Of a stretch of DNA of 36,728 nt, positions 2,212 through 36,728 are shown piece by piece (position 1 is the first letter of the stretch; each line of letters begins with the position of its first letter). This stretch comes from Actinomycetota bacterium (GTDB lineage Bacteria > Actinomycetota > Thermoleophilia > Gaiellales > Gaiellaceae). The stretch spans positions 1 to 36,728 of the forward strand of contig VAXK01000205.1 in NCBI GenBank assembly GCA_005885565.1, in the 5' to 3' direction. The position numbers were made by a program, and so were the translations under genes. The notes under the pieces are model-generated. The model saw only the letters and a program-made list of their open reading frames with translations, was not told where the DNA came from and did not search any database.

Positions 2212-2284
2212 GGGCCGTTAGCTCAGCTGGTAGAGCAGGGGACTCTTAATCCCAAGGTCGAAGGTTCGAATCCTTCACGGCCCA
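2212..2284 (+). tRNA. tRNA-Lys(CTT)
   Basis: GGGCCGT...ACGGCCC acceptor pairing, GCTCAGCTGGTAGAGC D-arm, anticodon loop ctCTTaa, GGTTCGAATCC T-arm; CCA not encoded. Confidence 0.95.
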
Positions 2285-2287
2285 CTG

Positions 2288-2334
2288 CCTCGCGAAGTCC
2301 GGCCCGCTTCGCGGGCCATGACGACTTCGCGAGG
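2288..2334. repeat. Nested palindrome (REP-like element, copy 1)
   Basis: 12-bp perfect outer arms CCTCGCGAAGTC (2288-2299)/GACTTCGCGAGG (2323-2334) enclosing inner hairpin GGCCCGC-TTC-GCGGGCC (2301-2317). Confidence 0.8.
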
Positions 2335-2574
2335 TTCGTCTCTACCGGTGAGCCGAGGTGAGCCGCGCCCGCCATGTCGGTCGCGGCGGCGGGTCAATTG
2401 CAGGGGGTGCTGTCGCTCCTGTAGCCTCCTCCGATTCCGGGGGAGCGCCCAGCACCTCACGCGGCGCTTGCTGGCGTCGCCCTGGCGGCCGTCCTCACGG
2501 CCGCCGCTGCTTCGGCTACGGCGCGCCCGCGTGAGAGCAGCCTGCCGGCGCAGTGCCTCGGCGTCACGCCGCGG

Positions 2575-36584: not shown

Positions 36585-36650
36585 CCGCCGTGTCGCGCCG
36601 CCGCGACCGACATGGCGGGCGCGGCACACGAACGTTCGCCGGTAGGAGAT

Positions 36651-36695
36651 CGCCGGAAAGTCGTCATGGCGCCGAAGGCGCCGGACCTTCCGGCG
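36651..36695. repeat. Nested palindrome (REP-like element, copy 2)
   Basis: Outer arms CGCCGGAA(A)GTC (36651-36662)/GAC(C)TTCCGGCG (36684-36695) around inner hairpin GGCGCC-GAA-GGCGCC; same bulge as copy 1 in reverse orientation. Confidence 0.75.
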
Positions 36696-36728
36696 TCGGC
36701 TAAAGTGCGGCTACCGCGGAAAGGAGGT

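Follow-up and report, generated by a model that had tools for sequence, protein, structure and literature searches.

The window analysed here, a stretch of 36,728 nucleotides, is one whole contig of a genome of 3.15 Mb that is assembled in 359 contigs and 84% complete. It contains two copies of a nested palindromic element, one behind a tRNA-Lys gene and one near the right end (Table 1). Copy 1 (2288-2334) had previously been read from its letters, on the minus strand, as a 12-bp outer stem, a GTCAT/G internal loop, a 7-bp inner stem and a GAA triloop, and this sequence-only reading was borne out exactly, as was the sequence that it gave for the element at 36651-36695 (+). A covariance model of the family (see below) matches copy 1 at 2285-2337 (+) with 65.9 bits and hairpin 1 of copy 2 with 56.9 bits. 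The pattern describing the shared core, AAGTCGTCATGGCN{3,12}GCCGGAC, has exactly two occurrences in the window and none in 100 shuffles. Each copy is longer than first noted: at a distance of about 25 nt from hairpin 1 there is another conserved block (CGCCGCCGCGACCGACATGGCGGGCGCGGC) of some 30 nt, and within a 55-nt block the copies match by 84%, including 30 identical bases (2342-2396 versus 36591-36645).

Copy 2 is adjoined by AAAGGAGGT, the reverse complement of the 3' end of 16S rRNA (ACCTCCTTT). Judged by this universal 3' end, the last nucleotides of the contig probably belong to a 16S rRNA gene whose body is unassembled, and both window copies would thus be located behind stable-RNA genes. 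A convergent methyltransferase-like gene ends at about 36584, within about 140 nt behind the 16S end (36585-36728); the 23S rRNA gene therefore seemingly does not follow the 16S rRNA gene, which is possibly an unlinked one.

Table 1 Features of the two element copies and of the genes adjoining them in the window
Feature	Position	Strand	Basis
tRNA-Lys(CTT), gene with copy 1 behind it	2212..2285	+	ARAGORN; Rfam RF00005
Copy 1, gene-strand reading, outer stem A, left arm (CCTCGCGAAGTC)	2288..2299	+	sequence
Copy 1, C / stem B GGCCCGC - TTC - GCGGGCC / ATGAC, asymmetric internal loop C/ATGAC	2300..2322	+	sequence
Copy 1, stem A, right arm (GACTTCGCGAGG)	2323..2334	+	sequence
Copy 1, hairpin 2 (GCCGCGCCCG-CCATGT-CGGTCGCGGC) and conserved GGCG end	2362..2391	+	comparison of copies
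Copy 2, hairpin 2	36599..36626	-	comparison of copies
Copy 2, hairpin 1, 16S direction: CGCCGGAAGGTC-C-GGCGCC-TTC-GGCGCC-ATGAC-GACTTTCCGGCG	36651..36695	-	sequence
Putative 16S rRNA gene, last 9 nt (ACCTCCTTT), contig end, reads towards copy 2	36720..36728	-	sequence

Comparison of the copies defines a unit of about 105 nt, which is composed of hairpin 1, about 25 nt, hairpin 2 and a terminal GGCG. Read along the host gene, hairpin 1 consists of stem A (12 bp), an unpaired C, stem B (5-9 bp, with the pairs G-C, G-C at its foot), a triloop, the return of stem B, an unpaired ATGAC and the return of stem A; it is followed by 24-28 nt, which in many copies end in GTGA, by hairpin 2 and by GGCG. 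The folds are strong (z about -3.2). Stem A is locus-specific, its sequence being different at almost every site. The GAA triloop is present in both window copies and is the commonest one, but it is not the sole triloop of the family (gene strand, n = 183: TTC 41, TGC 27, TCC 11, TAC 7, and others), and the GTCAT/G internal loop, which had been taken as identical between copies, is highly though not perfectly conserved (gene strand, n = 171: C/ATGAC 126, C/ATGAT 32). Partial copies representing the left half of hairpin 1 are located directly upstream of complete ones in three loci (L221 near 5906, L185 near 1501, and L076 near 1358). Hairpins that lack the asymmetric loop and match the model about equally on both strands were observed near complete copies or tRNAs (L190 1698-1731, L194 1302-1348, L346 288-337, and L358 210-258); these are ordinary terminators or decayed or other-type elements.

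The covariance-model search proposed in the sequence-only reading was performed with a model built from 48 copies and applied to 12 genomes including the window's own. The own genome was found to have at least 8 copies and the 11 relatives 3-32 each; these copy numbers are lower bounds, since only the best 150 first-look candidates were scored. Among 399 genomes of the class, 45 are carriers according to the covariance model, 44 of them in the window's own family and one elsewhere in the class, and whole genera of the family are devoid of the element; in a sample of 397 genomes of the phylum the own genome alone was positive. A strict pattern scan of 85,000 species genomes returned 61 stretches, about 54 of which are real and stem exclusively from soil MAGs of Actinobacteria/Thermoleophilia, often with several per genome; the class of several carriers is inferred from their recorded name 'Thermoleophilia bacterium'. 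About seven matches of the scan (Nitrospirales, Comamonas, and others) were judged to be chance because their stems do not pair. Phage and plasmid collections yielded no copies. Two weak matches in viral contigs were rejected, the better one (L235) being a stretch that is also found in a Bryobacterales chance match and the other (L236) comprising the core only. No Rfam family matches the element at the gathering score, and the open-access literature contained no description of it. All genomes concerned are fragmented MAGs in which gene calls are approximate and some copies degenerate. The repeat family is apparently undescribed and restricted to one lineage of uncultured soil Actinomycetota.

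The position of the copies at tRNAs and gene 3' ends, which the earlier reading had named as a point to check, is a strongly marked property of the family. The outer stem starts 0 nt past a stop codon or 1-7 nt past a tRNA. Among 102 copies, 31 begin 1-7 nt behind a detected tRNA and 46 are located near the stop codon of an ORF of at least 60 codons; in the set of 183 unique copies, a tRNA T-arm immediately precedes 67. Of the non-tRNA copies with an ORF of at least 100 codons, 21 have no nucleotide between stop codon and stem (0 nt), and in 8 the left arm includes the stop codon, which ends 8 nt into the stem and is mostly the TGA of '..TGAAGTC..'. Random positions have a stop codon at 0 nt in 11 of 3868 cases (0.3%). 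When the gene strand was called by GC-by-codon-position, 79 of 91 classifiable copies had a sense-strand gene upstream and 12 an antisense one, the downstream genes being unbiased. In the own genome, copies follow tRNA-Lys(CTT), Arg(TCG), Ser(GCT), Val(GAC), and Phe(GAA), and about 31 other tRNAs have none. In 12 copies with the stop codon inside the stem, the left arm is formed by the last codons and TGA and the right arm is its (nearly) perfect complement; in one of them (L111) the encoded protein ends ..IKAA*, as in the homologues L197 and L206. Apart from the stop-codon-like T-N-R at -3 to -1, the only feature of flank composition is a weak excess of T after the stem (50% at +2 and 36% at +3 compared to a background of 16%), there being no true U-run, and a terminator scan of the region around copy 1 gave no match.

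The stems had been described as differing by compensating changes, and the covariation is real: in 48 aligned copies, 96% of the pair cells hold standard pairs, the covariation score is 0.546 compared to 0.12, and 229 cells are changed on both sides compared to 70 in shuffles and 30-59 in slid controls. In stem A (n = 171 copies), 1987 of 2052 pairs (97%) are Watson-Crick pairs, the exceptions being 21 G.U, 26 A.C, and 18 others. RNA kept by selection is expected to tolerate G.U far more than A.C. The excess of G.U that would mark RNA-level selection is not seen in stem A, which argues against such selection as the means of upkeep; the symmetry of the mismatches suggests upkeep at the DNA level or fresh insertion instead. 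Going by these counts, the pairing looks like the product of fresh insertion, fold-back copying or a double-stranded DNA constraint, followed by symmetric decay. For the copies whose stem contains the stop codon there are two options: pairing is re-established by selection whenever a base changes, or the arm is a copy of host sequence. The element may serve as a warning that covariation by itself is no proof of a functional RNA.

For the copies of genome G262, the flanking sequences were followed into four congeneric species. The tRNA-Ile site is occupied in G262, G050, and G090, with unrelated stems and second hairpins, and empty in G155, the species closest to G262 by flank identity. At a pantothenate kinase-like locus, the copy is intact in G262 and decayed in G155, where the right arm and hairpin 2 are lost, and G176, G050, and G090 are empty; other sites are occupied in G262 only. 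At one orthologous site, stem B is kept (GGCTCGCGC) and stem A is wholly different between species. The nearest relative of a copy resides in the same genome in 48 of 182 cases (expected 7.9, maximum 21 in 500 permutations) and at the same tRNA of another genome in only 4 of 182, which indicates dispersal within genomes and not simple vertical inheritance. Copies at tRNA-Lys in several genera share the same type of hairpin 2, and some older placements may have been retained. Several duplications involving copies were also observed. In contig C259 of the own genome (7014-7062 and 9357-9408; L010 and L009), tRNA-Val(GAC) is followed by a copy that recurs at a distance of 2.3 kb, and the repeated stretch also takes in the final ~34 nt of the tRNA gene and more than 200 nt of sequence downstream. 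In L208 (2311-2538), a copy is located beside a small SRP RNA gene, with an SRP RNA fragment (model 32-60) on its other side, which suggests that gene pieces were duplicated along with the element. Genome G262 contains two tandem duplications of about 936 bp with an element copy in each (L227 2187/3124; L234 986/1922).

Genes of the IS200/RAYT type (PF01797) occur in 125 of the 399 genomes of the class and, by hand count, in 35 of the 44 carrier genomes of the family, with up to seven in genus g6, which is rich in copies. The RAYT-like Y1 transposase genes of the family are diverse and multi-copy (up to 7 per genome; L239-L258). The associated REP transposase that the earlier reading had envisaged did not emerge from the analysis, since 20 RAYT-like neighbourhoods from carriers contained no convincing copy (best R1 match E = 0.014). 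In the element-rich G068, G125, and G240, whose assemblies are incomplete, no PF01797 gene was found. Spread in trans by a PF01797-type enzyme is a plausible candidate mechanism that the data do not require.

The copies are thus dispersed, oriented, located at gene 3' ends, variably present within a genus, and more similar within a genome than across genomes at one site. The element is probably a non-autonomous, REP-like mobile element of one Thermoleophilia lineage with a two-hairpin unit of about 105 nt. The earlier verdict of a 'REP-like or RNA-structured dispersed element, not a chance terminator' is supported by the copies in the own genome and in relatives and by their placement at gene 3' ends. 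Such an element would spread in trans as a folded single DNA strand that is recognized through the nearly invariant asymmetric loop (GTCAT/G; on the other strand C/ATGAC) next to stem B, and the enzyme, encoded elsewhere, would be an HUH/Y1 (RAYT-like) transposase or another hairpin-reading recombinase. The outer stem would be remade time and again at the individual sites, since coding sequence of the host (last codons and TGA) can supply one arm, to which the other is exactly complementary. Behind a gene the element would be harmless and may double as a terminator or as a hairpin protecting the 3' end. Against mobility stand the 20 neighbourhoods without a transposase gene beside a copy, the incomplete but element-rich genomes that show no PF01797 gene, and the failure to find a target-site duplication or a fixed insertion tetranucleotide; moreover, the strict orientation and position are stronger than random insertion without selection would give, and copies at orthologous tRNAs of different genera, which were often seen, fit long retention as well. 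A more specific version, which we hold to be unlikely, is that the mobile hairpin builds its outer stem from the target: one arm would be made, either on insertion or later by fold-back copying, as an exact complement to the 7-9 bases with which the host gene ends. This version is supported by the complementary arms of the stop-in-stem copies, by the 97% Watson-Crick pairs of stem A in the family and their lack of a G.U excess, and by the difference in stem A at orthologous sites where stem B is similar. If it is true, each copy gains a perfect locus-specific stem and seals the 3' end of its host gene.

Part of the same evidence could be read as that of a structured RNA element, i.e. a terminator or a processing or stability hairpin at the 3' end of tRNAs, rRNA, and mRNAs, whose C/AUGAC loop would be the recognition site of a protein (termination factor or RNase) and which would be maintained by site-wise selection. 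Placement and orientation at gene 3' ends, the massive covariation, the strong folds, the weak T enrichment at +2/+3, and the presence of copies at the same tRNA in several genera are in line with it, but the G.U pairs do not exceed the A.C mismatches, the copies behind orthologous tRNAs, where there are any, are unrelated in their stems and second hairpins, most tRNAs have no copy (about 5 of 36 have one in the own genome), a real U-tract and a terminator-scan match around copy 1 are absent, and related genera of the same family lack the element; we rate this explanation as rather unlikely. A chance likeness among unrelated ordinary terminators is practically negligible: GC-rich hairpins are common behind genes, but the shuffles gave no match, the 85,000-genome scan returned almost only one lineage, and the second hairpin is common to the copies. 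The last point also disfavours another idea that was considered, namely that the core inserted itself into the loop of a terminator which the host already had, because hairpin 2 lies outside that stem.

A classical REP of the GTAG or CGTC superfamily, moved by its cognate RAYT, appears quite improbable. Most REPs, too, are located downstream of genes, and they can provide the stop codon; CGTC repeats in particular are found behind genes, often less than 20 bp from the 3' end, without a dedicated transposase (Di Nocera et al. 2013, PMC3733652, where the two superfamilies are distinguished). GTCGTCAT has CGTC at the foot of stem B, and Corneloup et al. (PMC8266576) show that E. coli TnpAREP requires a bulge in the hairpin and a motif ahead of it. 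The flank composition, however, shows no GTAG next to the hairpin. The tag of CGTC REPs is a terminal CGTC, TGTC or CCTC; most copies have CGTCAT, but in a paired context and with variation (GTCATC forms), so that it may or may not count as such a tag. The stem of 8-9 bp starting with A-T pairs and the unpaired CCA tail of CGTC REPs are missing, the inner stem starting with G-C, G-C. The 3-32 copies detected per genome, although lower bounds, are few for REPs, which usually exceed 100 per genome (PMC2817692), and in the 20 neighbourhoods no RAYT gene was flanked by copies in the manner of a REPtron.

Among known systems, the element shares with REPs in general that it consists of dispersed multi-copy palindromes between genes. 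The CGTC REPs, including Neisseria dRS3 and Rickettsia RPE-4/RPE-6, are alike in the short palindrome, in CGTCAT beside a stem of variable sequence, in the place just downstream of genes, and in the lack of an attached transposase gene. The tag of the element described here, however, is part of an asymmetric internal loop around which a locus-specific 12-bp stem closes, a different second hairpin usually follows the first, and head-to-head dimers were not seen among its copies. The phyla listed for CGTC repeats (PMC3733652) exclude Actinobacteria. GTAG REPs and REPINs moved by RAYT (TnpAREP) are likewise non-autonomous, dispersed, extragenic hairpins behind genes with a required bulge, and the element differs from them by stems whose sequence is not common to the copies, besides GTAG, RAYT gene, and copy number. 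Miniature elements derived from IS200/IS605 resemble it in having two subterminal imperfect hairpins and relatives of the Y1 transposase in the genomes; in the element, however, hairpins 1 and 2 are unlike, no fixed insertion target was found, and no parent IS lies beside the copies. Intrinsic (Rho-independent) terminators also place a GC-rich hairpin immediately behind stop codons and tRNAs, but the U-run that directly follows their hairpin is lacking, and terminators do not need the internal loop. We therefore file the element as REP-like but in neither superfamily, because it is without A-T stem foot, CCA tail, dimers and, apparently, terminal tag and adds the enclosing variable stem and the second hairpin. 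Its anatomy, with nested stems, an asymmetric loop that hardly varies, and stop codons directly at the stem (0 nt), is unlike that of described REPs, and the element offers a natural case for the questions of how short repeats without a transposase move and why stems stay perfect while their sequence changes.
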